Of a stretch of 48,736 bases of DNA, positions 13,555 through 26,182 are shown piece after piece. Location of the stretch: positions 1 to 48,736 of the forward strand of contig JAPSIR010000004.1 of assembly GCA_031178625.1 (NCBI GenBank), given 5' to 3'. This stretch comes from Cellulomonas sp. (GTDB lineage: Bacteria; Actinomycetota; Actinomycetes; Actinomycetales; Cellulomonadaceae). Numbering within the stretch: position 1 is the stretch's first letter; every line of letters starts with the position of its first letter. Under the pieces are notes generated by a model. It did not search any database. It was not told where the DNA came from and saw nothing but the letters and a program-made list of their open reading frames with translations. The translations under genes and the position numbers were made by a program.

Positions 13555-15081
13555 TCAGTCGCGGCCCGCCCGTCCGGCGAGCAGCACGGCCGCAGCGACG
13601 GCCACGAGCAGCGCGCAGCCCGCACCCACCGGTCCGGCCAACCAGGCGACCGCCGCACCGGGCAACCCGGCGCAGACGCGCGCGACGGCGCCCGTCCACC
13701 AGCACGCGGCGCCCGCGACCGCCGCCAGGGCGGCCGCACCGGTGGGCCACCACCCGGCCAGCGCGACGGCCGCGAGGCCGAGCACCGTCGCGGGAGCCAC
13801 GACCGGGGCCGTGAGCAGGTTCGCCGGCACGGACCAGACGCCGAGGCTCGGCCACAGCGCCAGCACGACGGGCAGGCAGCCGAGCTGCGCGGCCACCGGC
13901 GCCACCAGCACGCCCGCGGCGGCGCGGCCGCACCGCGGGGCCCACCGCGCGACCAGCGGCGGGCCGAGCACGACGAGGCCGGCCGTCGCACCCACCGACA
14001 GCACGAAGCCAGGTGCCACCGCGAGCCACGGGTCGTGCAGGAGCAGCACGACCACGGCGGTGCACAGAGCCGCCGGGCCCAGCGACCGGCGGCCGGCGAG
14101 CAGGCCCACGAGGCCGACCGCGCCCATCACCGCGGCACGCACGACGCTCGGCTCGGGGCCGACGACGAGGACGAGGGCCCCGCTCACGAGGCCGACCGCC
14201 GCGGCGCGCACGACGCGCGGCGCACCGAGCGCGCCGGTGCAGGCCAGCGCCAGGGCGCCCAGCAGCGCGAAGTGCGCCCCCGAGACCGCCGTCAGGTGCG
14301 CGAGCCCGGACGTGCGCATGGCGTCGCGCAGGTCGTCCGGGACACCGCCCGTGTCACCGACCGTCACCCCCGGCAGCAGCGCGCCCGCGTCACCGGGCAG
14401 GGCGGCGGCCAGCTCGCGCGCGTGCCCGCGGGCGGCCGCCGACCACGCCGACCACGGCCGGGGGCCGTCGAGCACCCGCGGGGCGCCGCGCACGGCGACC
14501 ACCACCGCGGCGCGCTCGCCCGCCGGCCGCAGGGACGCGCGCCCACGGACCGCGACCTGCACGCCCACGTCGACGGACGGCACCGCGACCGCCCGTGCCC
14601 CGTCGGCCGAGGGGTCCACGGGCACGAGCAGCTCGACGTGGACGCGTCCGCCGAGGAGCTCGCCGGTGCGCGCGGACCGCACGGCTTCCGCCGCGACCGT
14701 CGTCGCGACGCGCCGCGGCACCACCCCGCCGCCGAGCGGCCGCGGCGGAGCGGCGACGCGTCCGACGACGTCGACGAGCGCACCCTCCTGGGCCGCCCGG
14801 ACGACGCCGGCCGGCGCGGCCGCCCCGCGCTGGAGCACTCCGGCCCCGAGCACGGAGATCCCGACGACCACGGCCAGCGCCGCCGCCGGGAGGACCCGGA
14901 GCCGCGCCCGACCGGAGCACGCCAGGAGGGCGGCGGCGCCCAGCAGGAGGGCCGCCACGCCGCACGCCGCCGCGAGCCGCGCCCGGTCGACGGGGACGAG
15001 CACGACGCACGCGGCGGCACCCCACGCCACCGCCGCGGACGGCAGCAGGCGCAGGTCGACGCGCGGCTGGACGGCGCTCAC
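13555..15081 (-). CDS. comEC: ComEC/Rec2-type DNA-uptake channel, short form
   Basis: 508 aa. N-terminal membrane segments and an OB-fold region (about 90-200) are followed by the competence domain, with SGLAHLTAVSGAHFALL, EPSVVRAAVMG and many hydrophobic segments. The protein ends within the last hydrophobic stretch (LLAGRAGRD), so the C-terminal metallo-beta-lactamase nuclease-like domain found in about 750-aa ComEC proteins is absent. ComEC forms the membrane channel for single-stranded DNA during transformation. GTG start, 4-nt overlap with comEA. Nothing shows that the cell is naturally competent. Confidence 0.9.
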   Translation of the reverse strand: MSAVQPRVDLRLLPSAAVAWGAAACVVLVPVDRARLAAACGVAALLLGAAALLACSGRARLRVLPAAALAVVVGISVLGAGVLQRGAAAPAGVVRAAQEGALVDVVGRVAAPPRPLGGGVVPRRVATTVAAEAVRSARTGELLGGRVHVELLVPVDPSADGARAVAVPSVDVGVQVAVRGRASLRPAGERAAVVVAVRGAPRVLDGPRPWSAWSAAARGHARELAAALPGDAGALLPGVTVGDTGGVPDDLRDAMRTSGLAHLTAVSGAHFALLGALALACTGALGAPRVVRAAAVGLVSGALVLVVGPEPSVVRAAVMGAVGLVGLLAGRRSLGPAALCTAVVVLLLHDPWLAVAPGFVLSVGATAGLVVLGPPLVARWAPRCGRAAAGVLVAPVAAQLGCLPVVLALWPSLGVWSVPANLLTAPVVAPATVLGLAAVALAGWWPTGAAALAAVAGAACWWTGAVARVCAGLPGAAVAWLAGPVGAGCALLVAVAAAVLLAGRAGRD

Positions 15082-16073
15082 ACCCGCACGTGCGGCCGCA
15101 GCCGCTCGAGGACCGCGGGACCGATGCCGCTGACCTCGTCGAGCTCGTCGACCGACGTGAACGGCGCCTCCTCACGGCGGTCCAGGATCCGCTGGGCGAG
15201 CACCGGGCCGACGCCCGGCAGCGCGTCGAGCGCGGCGAGGTCGGCGGTGTTGAGGTCGACGCCCGCAGGCCCCGGCGCGGCGCCGGCGGTGCCCGTCACC
15301 GCGCCGGGCTCCAAGGTCGCCGGCGCGGGCGCCGTGACGGCCTCGCCCGCCCGCGGCACGCGCAGCTGCTCGCCGTCGACGACCGTGCGCGCGAGGTTGA
15401 GCCCGGCCAGGTCGGCGTCGGGCGCCGCTCCGCCCGCCGCGGTGACCGCGTCGGCGACCCGCGCGTCCCCGGGCAGGGTCACGACCCCGGGCGCCGCGAC
15501 GGCGCCGACGACGTGCACGACCGCCGGCTGCACGGAGGGGGTCGGCACGGCGGCGGCCGCCGGCGGTCCCGTCGGGTCCGCCTGCACGCGCGGGCGCGGC
15601 ACGTCGACGGGCGCGCCGGCGGGCCCGGTCGAGGCGCGCAGGGCGACACCGCCCGCGAGCAGCGCGACCGCGAGGGCGGCGGCCGCGGCGGCACGCGGGG
15701 CGACGGCCCACCGCACGCGGGACCGTGCCGGCCGGGGCCGGTGCGCCGTCGCGACGGTGCCGTCGGCGTCCGGATCGGGTGTCCCGGGTGATCCGGCACG
15801 TCGTGCCGCGTCGGCCAGCGCGTCGAGCGTCGCCGCGCGTCGCTCCGGCGCCGGCGGGACGCCCTGCCGCGGCACCGAGCCGGACGACGCGGCTGCGGGC
15901 GAGCGCGGCGTCCAGCCCGTGGGCGCCGTCGGCGGCACGGGCGTCGACCGCTCCTCGGGCGTCGCCGCCCGTCCCGGTGCCGTCGGCCGTGCGCGCCGCG
16001 CCGCCGGGTCGCCGCCGGCCAGCGCGGCGAGACGGTGCGCCACGGCGGGCTCGGGTCGGTCGCGGGAGGGCAC
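15078..16073 (-). CDS. comEA: ComEA-type helix-hairpin-helix DNA receptor
   Basis: 331 aa. The first about 120 residues are a Pro/Ala/Arg-rich cytosolic tail, followed by one transmembrane helix (AAAAALAVALLAGGVAL). Next come an SLBB-type segment (VVHVVGAVAAPGVVTLP...) and a C-terminal tandem helix-hairpin-helix (VDLNTADLAALDALPGVGPVLAQRI, then SGIGPAVLERLRPH). Membrane-anchored DNA-binding protein that hands DNA to ComEC. The GTG start lies 6 nt after TAGCGT, so the comEA-comEC transcript is probably leaderless. Confidence 0.93.
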   Translation of the reverse strand: MPSRDRPEPAVAHRLAALAGGDPAARRARPTAPGRAATPEERSTPVPPTAPTGWTPRSPAAASSGSVPRQGVPPAPERRAATLDALADAARRAGSPGTPDPDADGTVATAHRPRPARSRVRWAVAPRAAAAAALAVALLAGGVALRASTGPAGAPVDVPRPRVQADPTGPPAAAAVPTPSVQPAVVHVVGAVAAPGVVTLPGDARVADAVTAAGGAAPDADLAGLNLARTVVDGEQLRVPRAGEAVTAPAPATLEPGAVTGTAGAAPGPAGVDLNTADLAALDALPGVGPVLAQRILDRREEAPFTSVDELDEVSGIGPAVLERLRPHVRV

Positions 16074-20352: not shown

Positions 20353-21684
20353 TCATGCCCGTGCGGGGACCGTGGCGCGGCGGTCCGGCACCTCGTCGGG
20401 CACGGCGTCCGGGACGGCGTCCGGCACCTCGTCGGGCACGCCGTCCGGCGCGGTGTCCTGCACAGCGCGCGGCACGGCACCCGGCACGGCACCCGGCGCA
20501 GGGCCGCGGCCCACGGTGAGGACGACCACCAGCCCGAGCGCCGTGAGCCCGGCGCCGACCCACGCGGGTGCGAGCAGGCCCCACCCGCCCGCGATGACGA
20601 GGCCGCCGAGGAACGCGCCGGCGGCGTTGCCGAGGTTGAGCGCCGAGTGGCACAGCGCCGCGCCGAGCGACGGCGCGGCGGGCGAGACGTCCATGAGCCG
20701 CGTCTGCAGCGCGAGGCCGAGCACCTGCGACGTGACGCCGAGCAGCACGAGCGCGGGCACGACCGCCGCCGGCCACGGCCCGACGAGCGCGATGACGACG
20801 AGCACGACGATGGTGGCGACCATGCCGCCGACGACGGTGCCGAGCACGGACCGGTCGGCGAGGCGCCCGCCGAGCAGCGTGCCGACCGTCATGCCGACGC
20901 CGTACAGCGCGAGCACGAACGGCACGGTCGTCACGGCGAGACCGCTCACGTCGGTGAGGAGCGGCTTGACGTAGGAGTAGACGGCGAACATGCCGCCGAA
21001 CCCGATCGCCCCCGCGCCGAACGCCACCCACAGCGGGCCGTTGCGCAGGGCGGCGAGCTCGCCGCGCACGGTCGCGTCGGCGGCCGCCGGGAGCGACGGC
21101 GTCCAGGCGCGCAGCGCGACGAGCGTCGCGAGGCCGATGCCGCCGACCGCGACGAACGCCCACCGCCAGCCGACGGCGTGCCCGACCACCGACGACAGCG
21201 GCACGCCGACCGCGCAGGCGACCGTGAGGCCGGCCATCATGGCCGACACCGCGCGGCCGCGGCGCTCGGGCCCGACGACGGCGGTGCCCACGACGGCCCC
21301 GACGCCGAAGAACGCGCCGTGCGGCAGCCCCGCCAGGAAGCGGGCGGCCACGAGCGTCTCGGCAGTGGGCGCGAACGCCGCGAGGACGTTGCCGACCGTG
21401 AACGCCGCCATGAGCAGGAGCAGGAGGCGACGGCGGTCGGTGCGGGCGCCGAGCGCGGCCAGCGTGGGGGCGCCGAGCACGACGCCGAGCGCGTACGCGG
21501 TGATCGCGTGGCCCGCGACCGGGATGGACACGTCGAGGTCCGTCGCGATCTCCGGCAGCAGGCCCATCGTGGCGAACTCGGTGGTGCCGATGCCGAAGCC
21601 GCCGAGGGCGAGCGCCAGCAGCGCCGTACGGGCACGCCGGGCGGAGGGGGCCGCGGCGGTGGCGGGCGGGGCGGTGACGGTCAC
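20353..21684 (-). CDS. MFS exporter of the DHA1/AraJ type
   Basis: 443 aa from the GTG at 21684; the track's GTG at 21723 would place a 16-bp palindrome inside the gene. Twelve hydrophobic segments. GGFGIGTTEFATMGLLPEIA at the first helix and ARTDRRRLLLLLM in loop 2-3 are typical of AraJ/YdhP-like drug or sugar effluxers. Substrate unknown. The cytosolic C-terminal tail is a run of VPDEVPDAVPDAVPDEVPD-like units. The palindrome CTCGAATCGATTCGAG 5 nt before the GTG suggests specific repression. Confidence 0.85.
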   Translation of the reverse strand: MTVTAPPATAAAPSARRARTALLALALGGFGIGTTEFATMGLLPEIATDLDVSIPVAGHAITAYALGVVLGAPTLAALGARTDRRRLLLLLMAAFTVGNVLAAFAPTAETLVAARFLAGLPHGAFFGVGAVVGTAVVGPERRGRAVSAMMAGLTVACAVGVPLSSVVGHAVGWRWAFVAVGGIGLATLVALRAWTPSLPAAADATVRGELAALRNGPLWVAFGAGAIGFGGMFAVYSYVKPLLTDVSGLAVTTVPFVLALYGVGMTVGTLLGGRLADRSVLGTVVGGMVATIVVLVVIALVGPWPAAVVPALVLLGVTSQVLGLALQTRLMDVSPAAPSLGAALCHSALNLGNAAGAFLGGLVIAGGWGLLAPAWVGAGLTALGLVVVLTVGRGPAPGAVPGAVPRAVQDTAPDGVPDEVPDAVPDAVPDEVPDRRATVPARA

Positions 21685-21689
21685 GCGAC

Positions 21690-21705
21690 CTCGAATCGAT
21701 TCGAG
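21690..21705. promoter_or_regulatory. Perfect 16-bp palindrome before the MFS gene
   Basis: CTCGAATCGATTCGAG, 5 nt upstream of the MFS GTG, with a partial third half-site (ATCGAG, 21711-21716) next to it. AT-rich centre in a GC-rich background. Candidate operator for a dimeric regulator, possibly the neighbouring DtxR/MntR protein or an unlinked TetR/MarR. Confidence 0.6.
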
Positions 21706-21751
21706 CACGGATCGAGGGGACACCGTCGGCCGCTCGGGGGATGAGGCCAGA

Positions 21752-22444
21752 CTACGCCGCGACCGGCGCGGCGAGCCAGATGGCGCTCGCCGCGACCTCG
21801 CCGAGCTCCACGCGCGCGGGCGGCACGCCGTCGATCTCGACGCTGACCACCCCGGTGACGGCTCGGCGCTCGTCGAGCCGCACCCGGGCGTCGAGGACCA
21901 GCCCCACGTCGTCGAGGTACCGCAGCAGCTCCGGGTCCGCGTCCGAGATCCGCGCCACGACGTACTCGCCGGGCTCGACCTCCCACATCACGCGAGCGTC
22001 CGGCAGGTGCACCGTGCCGTCCGGGCCCGGGATGGGGTCGCCGTGCGGGTCGCGGTCCGGGTGGCCGAGCAGCTCGGCGACGCGCTCGACGAACCGGTCG
22101 CTCACGGCGTGCTCCAGCACCTCGGCCTCGTCGTGGACCTCGTCCCACGCGTAGCCGAGCTTCTCGACGAGGTACGTCTCGATGAGCCGGTGGCGACGCA
22201 CCATCACGACCGCGTGCGCGCGGCCGACGTCCGTCAGCTCGACCGCGCCGTACGGCCGGTGGGTCACCAGCCCCGCGTCCGCGAGCCGGCGGACGGTCTC
22301 CGACACCGTGGAGGCGCCGACACCGAGGCGGCCCGCCAGGAGCTTGGTCGTCACCGGCGCGTCGGACCACTCCTGGGCACCCCAGATGACCTTGAGGTAG
22401 TCCTGGCCGACGGCCGTCAGCGGGGCGGGGCTGTCCGAGGTCAC
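21752..22444 (-). CDS. DtxR/MntR-family metal-dependent repressor
   Basis: 230 aa from the GTG at 22444. Winged HTH (LAGRLGVGASTVSETVRRLADAGLV), dimerisation/metal domain (HRLIETYLVEKLGYAWDEVHDEAEVLEHAVSD) and a C-terminal SH3-like region. In the metal site, Asp replaces the Met of DtxR/IdeR (DYLKVIW) and Glu replaces the Cys (AEVLEH). Both changes are characteristic of MntR, so Mn(II) rather than Fe(II) is the likelier co-repressor. Leaderless: TACCCT 7 nt before the GTG. It lies upstream of the MFS gene, same strand, 67 nt apart. Confidence 0.88.
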   Translation of the reverse strand: MTSDSPAPLTAVGQDYLKVIWGAQEWSDAPVTTKLLAGRLGVGASTVSETVRRLADAGLVTHRPYGAVELTDVGRAHAVVMVRRHRLIETYLVEKLGYAWDEVHDEAEVLEHAVSDRFVERVAELLGHPDRDPHGDPIPGPDGTVHLPDARVMWEVEPGEYVVARISDADPELLRYLDDVGLVLDARVRLDERRAVTGVVSVEIDGVPPARVELGEVAASAIWLAAPVAA

Positions 22445-22487: not shown

Positions 22488-24050
22488 TCAGTGCCCGTCC
22501 ACGCTCCAGTGCCACGGCTCCCCGGGCAGGTTCTCGAGCCCGTACGCGGCGGCGTGCTCCGCGAGCCACACGTAGCCGGCCGACGTCGAGCCGAGCGTGC
22601 GGCCGCCGACGGTGAAGTCGATCGCCAGGCCGCGCTCGTGCCGCGACGAGCCGGGCCGGGCGGTGCTCGGCGAGCAGGACGACGCCGGCGCCTCGTACAC
22701 GTGCCAGTCCGTGGGGCCGCAGTGCGCCCGCCGCAGCGCCACCTGCTGGTCACCGCTGCGCCAGCCGCCGCCCCGCAGCTCGACGCCGTCCGCGCGCGCG
22801 GCCTCGACGAGCGCGTCGACGGTCTCCGCCAGGCACGGGTGCACCCGGATGCCGCTGCGCGTGACCACCGTGTCCGCCTGCGCGACGGGGCCGTCGACGA
22901 GGTCGCAGTCCGTGGGCTGCGCGCCGGTCGGCACCCGCGCCTCCGGCGCGGCGACCTGCCACAGCACCTCGCCTACAGGGCCGTGCAGCACCACCGCCGC
23001 CTCCTCGAGCACGAGCCGTGCACCCGCGCGCCCCGCCGTGGCGGTGCTCCACACGGGCGCACCGGCGGCGTCGAGGAGCACGAGGTCGCCGTCCTCCTGC
23101 AGGCGCGCCGTCACACCGGTGGTCGTCCCGGACGTCCACAGCGGCTCGCCGTCGAACGTCACCACGAGGGCGCCGTCCGCGACCTCGACGCGCAGGTGCC
23201 CGGACGGCGAGCCGAGGGACGCACCGGCACCGAGCTCGCCACCGGGCGCGAGCTCGGGGGGCCCGATCGGCGCCCCGGACGACCACACGGGAGCGCCGGC
23301 CGCGTCGAGCAGCACGAGCGTCCCGTCGTCCTGGACGGCCAGCGTCGTGCCGCCCTGCCCGGCCGTCCGGCTGCGCCACAGCCACGCGCCGTCCTCGTCG
23401 ACGGCGACGAGGTTCCCGTCGGGACGCAGCTCGAGCGCGACCGCCGGTGCGGCCGGCGCGGCCGACGTCGCCGCCCGGTCCGCCGCGCCGGGGGTCCAGC
23501 GCACCGTGCCGTCGGGACCCATGAGCTGCACGCCCACGTCCGGCAGCACGAAGAGGTTGTGCAGGCCGTCGGGCGACGACAGCACGTCGCCCGCGTCGAG
23601 GCGCACCGGGCCGGAGAGGCTGGCGGGCTCCTGGGCGGTGCCGCTCTGCCACGCGACGGCGCCCGCCGCGTCGACGACCACGAGGTCGCCGTCGTCCCGC
23701 ACCTGCAGCGCTCCGCCCGCCGCCGCGGTGCCGGTGCGCCACACCACGCCGCCGTCCGGCGCGACGAGCTCGACGTCGCCCGCCTCGGTCGCGCGCAGGG
23801 TCGAGCCCGGCACGCCCCGGCCCGACGACCAGCGGACCTTCCCGTCGACCCCGTAGAGGCCGAGCGCACCGTCCGGCTGGACCACCAGCGTGTGCGCGCC
23901 GCCCGGCGCGAGCAGCGCCTGCCCGGCGCTCAGCGTCTCGTTCGCGCGCAGGGCGTCCTCGCCGGCGACTGCCGTCGCGGGGCCGCCCAGGGCGACGAGG
24001 AGCGCCGCGGCGAGCGGCACGGCCAGGACGACGACGGACGCACGGCGCAC
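22488..24050 (-). CDS. Secreted B-lectin repeat / VanY D,D-carboxypeptidase fusion
   Basis: 520 aa from the GTG at 24050 (GAGGGAA SD). Signal peptide (RRASVVVLAVPLAAALLVALGG...). Residues about 35-380 carry several bulb-type lectin-like units, each with a D-G-x-L-x-V/L core and a W-x-S/T-G ending (DDGDLVVVDAAGAVAWQSG, DDGTLVLLDAAGAPVWSSG, EDGDLVLLDAAGAPVWST). The C-terminal about 125 residues are a peptidase M15B/VanY domain with the zinc motif SRHERGLAIDF and EPWHW. It probably trims peptidoglycan stem peptides while the lectin part tethers it to wall glycans or extracellular polysaccharide (inference). No TM anchor remains after cleavage. Confidence 0.88.
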   Translation of the reverse strand: MRRASVVVLAVPLAAALLVALGGPATAVAGEDALRANETLSAGQALLAPGGAHTLVVQPDGALGLYGVDGKVRWSSGRGVPGSTLRATEAGDVELVAPDGGVVWRTGTAAAGGALQVRDDGDLVVVDAAGAVAWQSGTAQEPASLSGPVRLDAGDVLSSPDGLHNLFVLPDVGVQLMGPDGTVRWTPGAADRAATSAAPAAPAVALELRPDGNLVAVDEDGAWLWRSRTAGQGGTTLAVQDDGTLVLLDAAGAPVWSSGAPIGPPELAPGGELGAGASLGSPSGHLRVEVADGALVVTFDGEPLWTSGTTTGVTARLQEDGDLVLLDAAGAPVWSTATAGRAGARLVLEEAAVVLHGPVGEVLWQVAAPEARVPTGAQPTDCDLVDGPVAQADTVVTRSGIRVHPCLAETVDALVEAARADGVELRGGGWRSGDQQVALRRAHCGPTDWHVYEAPASSCSPSTARPGSSRHERGLAIDFTVGGRTLGSTSAGYVWLAEHAAAYGLENLPGEPWHWSVDGH

Positions 24051-24163
24051 GCGGTTCCCTCCCCCGAGGTCACCGGCGGCCACCCCCTGCGGCCGTCGGC
24101 TGCACCAGGGCAGCACCTCCGTCGCCGATGCGCAAGACCCCGTCCGCCCCTGGGGTCAGGTGT

Positions 24164-26182
24164 TCACCCGCCGTCGACGGCGCCGTCGCCGTCGACGGGC
24201 ACGTCGCCCGCGCCGGTGCCCTCCGTGGCCGGCTCGTCGGCGCCCGGCTCGTCCGCGCCCGGCTCGTCCGCGCCCGGCTCGTCGCCGTCAGGCTCCACGA
24301 CGTCCGGCCACGGCTGCCGGTCCTCGACCGTCACCGTCGCGTCGGGCGCCACGCGCACGACCTGCACGTCGAGGAAGCGGCGGTCCCGCGGGTCGAACCG
24401 CAGCAGCGTGAGCTCCGCGACGCCGCGCAGCGGGCCGACCGTCGGCTGCCCGAGCGTCGCGCCGGCCGTGCTCGAGCTGATGTACCGGATGCCGAGGCCG
24501 ACCTGCTCGGGACCGACGCGGCGGTGGTAGTGACCGGACACCTGTGCCGGCACACAGCCTTCCTCGAGCGCCTCGTCGCCGGCGGTCGGGGTGTGCACGA
24601 GCAGCAGGTCGACGTCGCCGTCGTCGCACGCCGTCTCCGCGAGCCGGCGGGCCTGCTCGCCCGGCGTCTCCTGCGCCGCCGTCGTGCCGCCGCCGACGCG
24701 CGTCTCGTTGGCGTCCCGGTCGCCGAGCACGCGCAGGCCCGCGACGTCGACCACGGACCCGTCCAGCACGGTCGCGCCCGCACGGGCGTACCGGCGCGTC
24801 GTGTCGCGCGAGTCGTGGTTGCCGGGCGACGTGACGAGCGGGACGCCCGACGGGACCGTGCGCGCGAACGAGGTCACGCAGTACTGCTCGACCGACGTGC
24901 CGTTCATCGTGGTGTCGCCCGCGTCGAGGACCGCGTCGACGCCGGCCAGGTCGGCGAGCGTGCCGACCAGGGGCGCCATGCCGACGTTGCAGTGCAGGTC
25001 CGAGATGACGAGCAGCGTGACCGGCTCCACCGGCTCCTCGTCGTCGCCGCCGCGCGTGGCGTCGGCCGTGGGCGTCGGGTCCGACGGAGCGCCCGGACCC
25101 TGGCGGGCGGGCGCGTCGTCGGCGCCGTCCGCCCCACCACCCGGCGGCGCGTCGCCGGCGGCGGCGCCGTCGGCACCGGCCCCCGCGTCCTGCGCGCCCG
25201 CACCCTCTGCGCCCGCGCCGTCCGCGTCCGCGCCGTTCGGGTCCGCGCCGTCCGTGTCCGCGCCGCCGACGTCGGCGCCGTCCGCCCCCGCACCCTCCGC
25301 GCCCGCGCCGTCCGCGTCCGCGCCGTCCGCGGCCGCCTCCTCGGCGCGGCGCTCCTCGTCCTGCGCCCACTCGTCCCACGCCGACGCGAGCGCGACGTCC
25401 GCCCTCGCGTAGAAGTCCTGGTTGGCGCGCCACGCGTCGACGGCGTAGCCGCCGTACGTGTCGATGACGCCGCCGAGCCGCCCGGTGACGCGGGCGCCTG
25501 CGAGCGGGGTGCCGTCGAAGACGGCGGACGCGACGACGCGGGGCTGCGGCTGGTCGGTGGGGGCGACGCTCGAGGTGAGCAGCGTCGCCCCGAGGACGAG
25601 CGTGAGAGCGGCCGCGACCGCGGGACGCCGGTGCGGGCGCAGGGCTGCGGCGAGCTGTGCCCGCCGCTCGGCGCCGAGCAGCAGCCGTCCCGCCCACCAC
25701 ACGGCGGTCAGCACGAGCAGGGCGACGAGCGAGCGCGCCGCGGCGTCGGCCGCGATCGCGACCGCGACGTCCCGCACGGCCGCCTCGGGCCCGGAGAAGA
25801 ACTGCAGGTACGCGGTCAGGTCGTCGCCGAGCGCCTGCAGCGTCGTCGCCTCACCCAGCTCGGTGACCTGCGCCGGGATCTCCTGCACCGTCGCGCGGGC
25901 ACCGAGCGTCAGCGGCAGGGGCGAGTCGATCTGCAGCGTGCCCAGCGGGCCGAGGTCGATGGTCACCGTCGCGTCGGTGGTGACGTCGTACCGCGTGACG
26001 TGCGGGCCGAGCGACGCCTGCACCGACGCGGTCGTCACGCCGAAGACCAGGGACGCGACCACGGCCAGCAGTGCGAGGAGCACCGTCGACGGCCGGGGCG
26101 CGCGCAGCCGGACGGGTCGGCGCCACCACGGCGGGCCGACGGGTGCCCCGTCAGCCGGGGGTGCGCTGCGCGGGTCGTCCAT
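24164..26182 (-). CDS. Membrane-anchored metallophosphoesterase with Ala/Gly/Asp linker
   Basis: 672 aa. Three hydrophobic segments at about 30-55, 150-165 and 185-205 precede a low-complexity linker (about 270-365) of ADGA/AEGA/GADxxGA units. The calcineurin-like phosphoesterase domain follows: VISDLHCN, DAGDTTMNG, SPGNHDS, HTP and SGHYHRR supply the whole metal-ligand set. The tail repeats EPGAD four times. The enzyme is expected on the outer face; substrate unknown. The ATG at 26182 lies 8 nt after TAGGCT, which overlaps the divergent promoter of the SRPBCC gene. Confidence 0.87.
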   Translation of the reverse strand: MDDPRSAPPADGAPVGPPWWRRPVRLRAPRPSTVLLALLAVVASLVFGVTTASVQASLGPHVTRYDVTTDATVTIDLGPLGTLQIDSPLPLTLGARATVQEIPAQVTELGEATTLQALGDDLTAYLQFFSGPEAAVRDVAVAIAADAAARSLVALLVLTAVWWAGRLLLGAERRAQLAAALRPHRRPAVAAALTLVLGATLLTSSVAPTDQPQPRVVASAVFDGTPLAGARVTGRLGGVIDTYGGYAVDAWRANQDFYARADVALASAWDEWAQDEERRAEEAAADGADADGAGAEGAGADGADVGGADTDGADPNGADADGAGAEGAGAQDAGAGADGAAAGDAPPGGGADGADDAPARQGPGAPSDPTPTADATRGGDDEEPVEPVTLLVISDLHCNVGMAPLVGTLADLAGVDAVLDAGDTTMNGTSVEQYCVTSFARTVPSGVPLVTSPGNHDSRDTTRRYARAGATVLDGSVVDVAGLRVLGDRDANETRVGGGTTAAQETPGEQARRLAETACDDGDVDLLLVHTPTAGDEALEEGCVPAQVSGHYHRRVGPEQVGLGIRYISSSTAGATLGQPTVGPLRGVAELTLLRFDPRDRRFLDVQVVRVAPDATVTVEDRQPWPDVVEPDGDEPGADEPGADEPGADEPATEGTGAGDVPVDGDGAVDGG
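25190..25345. repeat. Low-complexity 15-bp repeats inside the phosphoesterase gene
   Basis: Repeated GCGTCCGCGCCGTCC-like units on the + strand encode the acidic ADGA-type linker. Prone to slippage in steps of 15 nt without frameshift. Confidence 0.75.

Follow-up and report, generated by a model that had tools for sequence, protein, structure and literature searches.

B-lectin modules are best known from plant lectins and bacteriocins. Among the latter, albusin B of Ruminococcus albus 7 consists of a B_lectin domain followed by a peptidase of the M15 family PF08291 (PMC6240691, PMC6465234), and the LlpA bacteriocins are tandems of MMBL domains with no enzyme attached (PMC3585409). On target cells, UmbA4, from the umbrella toxins of Streptomyces, binds a teichuronic-acid-like polymer that is linked to the wall (PMC13274773). 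We analysed a 48.7-kb contig (the window) from a fragmented Cellulomonas genome assembly, which contains a gene for a protein with three MMBL domains and a C-terminal VanY-type M15 peptidase domain.

This protein resembles albusin B in that an N-terminal B_lectin part is joined to an M15 peptidase. However, albusin B has one lectin domain instead of three, and its peptidase belongs to PF08291, which has no match at E<1 in the Cellulomonas protein, where the peptidase belongs to PF02557. Albusin B has reported antibacterial activity, whereas none is known for the Cellulomonas protein, and it is a strain-level bacteriocin, whereas the Cellulomonas locus is conserved in the genus. A literature search for B-lectin combined with VanY returned no description of the triple-MMBL form with PF02557. 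Thus the union of B-lectin with M15 is already known in kind from albusin B, whereas for the genus-conserved triple-MMBL form with PF02557 we found no earlier description. The combination had been called uncommon in a reading of the sequence only; it has this one precedent and is indeed rare outside Cellulomonas, with a single independent case in about 400 genomes sampled across the phylum.

LlpA, putidacin L1 and pyocin L1 share the tandem MMBL beta-prism (Foldseek and phmmer matches), but they lack an enzyme domain and their sugar motif is not kept in the Cellulomonas protein. The putidacin L1 family model NF033557 has a cut-off of 275 bits; the lectin part reaches 119 and so falls outside that family. 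UmbA4 (9oee) is likewise a secreted actinobacterial protein whose repeats resemble MMBL (phmmer E 5e-13), but UmbA is part of a toxin particle and carries an inactive trypsin-like domain and no M15 domain. Among solved structures, the best relatives of the catalytic domain are the D,D-carboxypeptidase VanYB and the L,D-carboxypeptidases LdcB/DacB (M15B), with which it shares the zinc-site motifs. It differs from them in being compact (140 aa) and linked to lectins, in having conserved cysteines of its own, and in lying outside any van operon. Finally, VanY proteins of Acidimicrobiia carry an N-terminal coiled coil where the Cellulomonas protein has lectins.

Lectin and peptidase domains

The coding sequence is complete and occupies positions 22488..24050 of the minus strand (520 aa, GTG start to stop), exactly as proposed in the sequence-only reading; all features of the gene given below are on the same strand. 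Reading of the sequence places a Shine-Dalgarno-like GGGGGAGGG (24057..24065) six bases 5' of the GTG. The product is 83% identical to its C. telluris counterpart, and the GC3 of the gene resembles that of the adjacent genes, as expected of a native gene. Judged by eye, residues 1-29 (23964..24050) look like a signal peptide, with VRR, a hydrophobic core and the ending PATAVA before a glycine. The ending P-A-x-A is common to the orthologues. Sec-type export is predicted on this basis, and the protein is probably secreted, as had been proposed.

The lectin part comprises nine blades, each ending in a tryptophan, where several B-lectin-like units had been noticed before. They make up three whole MMBL / B_lectin domains: residues 30-145 (23616..23963; W74, W104, W134), supported by AlphaFold strands, profile and alignment; residues 146-264 (23259..23615; W185, W225, W256), where the best Pfam stretch lies; and residues 265-372 (22935..23258; W305, W334, W364), supported by profile and alignment. 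All nine tryptophans are invariant in 30 orthologues, and their spacing of 30, 30 and about 50 residues, repeated three times, is the MMBL pattern. The 520-aa protein matches B_lectin PF01453 with E 2e-13 and 51 bits (Pfam cut-off 32.4). The first domain alone falls under the cut-off (E 8e-4), and the second and third together exceed it (39.6 bits). No B_lectin match at E<1 was obtained with the lectin region reversed or with its residues shuffled (two shuffles). Both PF01453 and PF02557 are matched by 30/30 orthologues, so a failure of the repeats to fit B-lectin profiles, named earlier as one way to refute the proposal, was not seen.

The whole-chain AlphaFold model, built from 30 sequences, has strands in every blade and a pLDDT of 85.7; its pTM is 0.49, the relative placement of the domains being uncertain. 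Part of it superposes on the beta-prism II lectin 4tkc (TM 0.81 by target, 2.3 A, 111 columns), and three-blade beta-prism II units are thus predicted by the model. We also considered a beta-propeller of the PQQ/BamB type. PQQ_2 is matched by 8/30 orthologues, and designed propellers appear among both the sequence and the fold matches of the repeat region. However, B_lectin is matched by all orthologues, the tryptophans do not have the even spacing of a propeller, and the propeller superpositions are poor (rmsd 15-20 A, TM 0.1-0.17). The propeller reading is therefore scarcely tenable, and it was dropped on the grounds of spacing and superposition. Poor propeller superpositions dominated the whole-chain Foldseek list because the domains are flexibly linked, and the M15 domain was therefore modelled separately.

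The sugar-binding residues are not those of mannose-binding lectins. The strict motif QxDxNxVxY does not occur in any of the nine blades in the 30 orthologues; other actinobacterial fusions of MMBL with hydrolases, used as a comparison set, have three to six strict motifs. Since the motif is degenerate in every blade, mannose targeting by the lectin part is unsupported, and sugar binding may even have been lost. The pocket is partly kept in blades 3, 5, 6 and 8, with Asp in 25-30 and Val in 26-29 of the 30 sequences; Asn is often replaced by Asp in these blades, blade 5 excepted.

The VanY-type zinc peptidase domain comprises residues 381-520 (22491..22910), as seen by Pfam, alignment, profile search of the PDB, the model and Foldseek. 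VanY PF02557 is matched with E 2e-9 and 37.6 bits (cut-off 25). The motif SxHxxGxAxD (residues 469-478, 22617..22646) supplies the zinc ligands H471 and D478, and ExWH (residues 511-514, 22509..22520) supplies the catalytic E511 and the ligand H514. Both motifs and these four residues are invariant in 41 M15 domains from Cellulomonas and Acidimicrobiia, so that the zinc domain of M15B type is intact, as had been noted. The domain modelled alone has a pLDDT of 96.6. In a profile search of PDB sequences VanYB ranks first (E 6e-17) and L,D-carboxypeptidases of the LdcB type follow; Foldseek with the model of the domain gives the same order. Because these are the best matches in both sequence and fold, carboxypeptidase chemistry on stem peptides is likely. 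D,D-specificity appears more likely than L,D-, although the fold does not decide which bond is cut.

Locus and inheritance in Cellulomonas

The search for related loci found the full architecture in 30 named or numbered Cellulomonas species or strains, and lectin and VanY stand in one frame in about 36/60 sampled genus-mates. The conserved upstream neighbour encodes a metallophosphoesterase (PF00149) with N-terminal hydrophobic segments (24164..26182, minus strand). Downstream, after a gap of 43 bp, lies the gene of a metal-dependent repressor of the DtxR/MntR family (21752..22444, minus strand), and in the genus an MFS transporter gene (20353..21723, minus strand) often stands between dtxR and leuS. 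The order metallophosphoesterase, lectin-VanY gene, dtxR, (MFS), leuS holds wherever the contig permits. This fixed site has no immunity-type neighbour. In several species without the gene the metallophosphoesterase directly adjoins dtxR, leaving an empty site; others lack the phosphoesterase as well. Since it is missing in some Cellulomonas, the gene is not essential.

Presence and absence require four changes on the dtxR tree, compared with a mean of 11 after shuffling. Pairwise distances correlate with those of dtxR (lectin part r = 0.93, M15 domain r = 0.89; 0/2000 permutations as high). In pairwise comparison with C. telluris, the M15 domain has a dN/dS of 0.10 and the lectins 0.13-0.22. 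With a mean distance of 0.46, against 0.22 for dtxR, the lectin part has diverged at roughly double the rate of that gene, which could reflect an arms race. This is a vertically inherited, non-essential gene of the genus under purifying selection, and not a recently acquired mobile bacteriocin. A search for phage origin gave no phage match. A viral origin was rejected, as the IMG/VR matches cover the M15 domain only, and so was a plasmid origin, as the plasmid matches span either the VanY domain only or lectin-type proteins only.

Several features of these loci deserve mention in their own right. In the metallophosphoesterase, Ala-Asp-Gly repeats form long tracts of low complexity and EPGAD is repeated in tandem at the C terminus; its gene is sometimes lost together with the lectin gene. 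Near leuS and a DegV-family gene the window encodes a ComEA-like protein (15078-16073) with SLBB and helix-hairpin-helix domains, suggestive of a DNA-uptake gene. The C. septica orthologue (L059:1449-2651) is 98% identical to that of C. algicola, and exactly 80 residues are missing from it between two VVQDDG repeats that resemble each other, the result of either in-frame repeat recombination or assembly collapse.

Probable role of the protein

We consider it most probable, with a probability of about 0.55, that divergent lectin modules tether this protein to the wall of the cell that secretes it, where it acts as a D,D- (or L,D-) carboxypeptidase. It would be exported and its signal peptide removed. 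The three tandem beta-prism MMBL domains, diverged from mannose-binding ones, would then anchor it in the glycopolymer-rich wall of the producer, and the C-terminal domain would trim stem peptides; most likely it would cleave the last D-Ala from pentapeptides, the alternative being L,D-cleavage. We infer zinc-dependent activity, wall binding through the lectin part, and a self rather than foreign target. By analogy, attachment to the producer's own wall would agree with the occurrence of the same module on other wall hydrolases (NlpC/P60, CHAP), with the binding of a lectin of the UmbA family to a wall-linked glycopolymer (PMC13274773), and with the wall of Cellulomonas flavigena, whose sugar is chiefly rhamnose, accompanied by some mannose (PMC3035266). 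The sequence-only reading had suggested that a lectin directs the peptidase either to a specific glycan or against foreign cells. The domains are real and their fusion is rare, and lectin targeting remains the best, though conjectural, reading; the case for a specific glycan is weakened, because the canonical sugar-binding residues are degenerate in all blades. A foreign target is less likely than the producer's own wall, because the gene occurs across the genus by vertical inheritance, evolves under purifying selection and occupies a fixed site that lacks any neighbour of the immunity type.

The main competing explanation is a bacteriolysin resembling albusin B, its lectins binding a glycan of competitors and its M15 domain cutting their peptidoglycan. 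The precedent is close, as albusin B acts on R. flavefaciens (PMC6240691, PMC6465234); tandem MMBL domains are the core of the LlpA bacteriocins, the lectin part does score on the putidacin model, and this part evolves fast. However, that score is well under the cut-off, PF08291 is unmatched, and genes of lectin-like bacteriocins are patchy in distribution and atypical in composition (PMC6465234), whereas the Cellulomonas gene is genus-wide, syntenic, vertically inherited and native in GC3. VanY-type carboxypeptidases trim the wall and do not lyse it, which also counts against a bacteriolysin. We regard this as a minor possibility. A role in glycopeptide resistance, with D-Ala removed from precursors and vancomycin binding reduced, would be in keeping with VanYB as the best match in sequence and fold. 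But the VanY fold serves many housekeeping carboxypeptidases, and across 30 species the neighbours are the phosphoesterase, dtxR, MFS and leuS genes, with no vanHAX or vanRS, making resistance very improbable.

It is also conceivable, though unlikely, that the repeats have lost sugar binding and form a structural spacer or a platform for protein binding, and that the enzyme acts in the wall without recognising a glycan. The degenerate motifs alongside invariant core Trp, Gly and Leu would fit such a role, and the N-terminal MMBL domain of LlpA has a role of its own although its mannose site is not functional (PMC3585409). Against this, blades 3, 5, 6 and 8 retain parts of the pocket under purifying selection, which points to altered rather than lost binding. 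As a tentative extension of own-wall anchoring, the pockets redesigned from Asn to Asp may recognise a Cellulomonas-specific wall glycopolymer; the triple MMBL would then provide a species-tuned lectin address for a peptidoglycan trimmer, co-evolving with the wall sugars of each species.

If the targeting is true, B-lectin modules double as wall anchors of a peptidoglycan enzyme that is conserved and probably has a housekeeping role, and actinobacteria join them to at least three types of hydrolase (M15, NlpC/P60, CHAP). One could then also ask whether species-specific wall sugars co-evolve with the enzymes beneath them.

Lectin-hydrolase fusions and VanY relatives in other genomes

Other genera of Cellulomonadaceae gave lectin-only or VanY-only matches and no fusion, and none of the 28 B_lectin open reading frames read from 395 class-wide genomes has an M15 motif. 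The 397 phylum-wide genomes yielded one further fusion, in genome G600 of another lineage of the phylum (L140:1015-2391, minus strand), with two MMBL domains and VanY. Its sugar motifs are intact (six strict mannose motifs) and its VanY sequence is different; it looks to have arisen independently. Nearby, L140:4551-5813 encodes MMBL repeats preceded by a CHAP-like region. A resolvase-type recombinase gene separates it from the fusion gene, and the two may form a mobile hydrolase pair. A second lectin-hydrolase fusion within Cellulomonas (genome G250, L144:1341-2876) consists of three MMBL domains with six strict mannose motifs and NlpC/P60. MMBL is fused to CHAP in other actinobacteria as well (L141). 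These cases show that MMBL modules have repeatedly been joined to wall hydrolases.

Outside the genus the closest relatives of the M15 domain are the coiled-coil VanY proteins of Acidimicrobiia, with about 45-60% identity. No ftsEX genes were found beside two of them. In four loci (L084, L100, L109, L110) they form tandem arrays of up to three paralogues. It is possible that this family represents putative wall peptidases.
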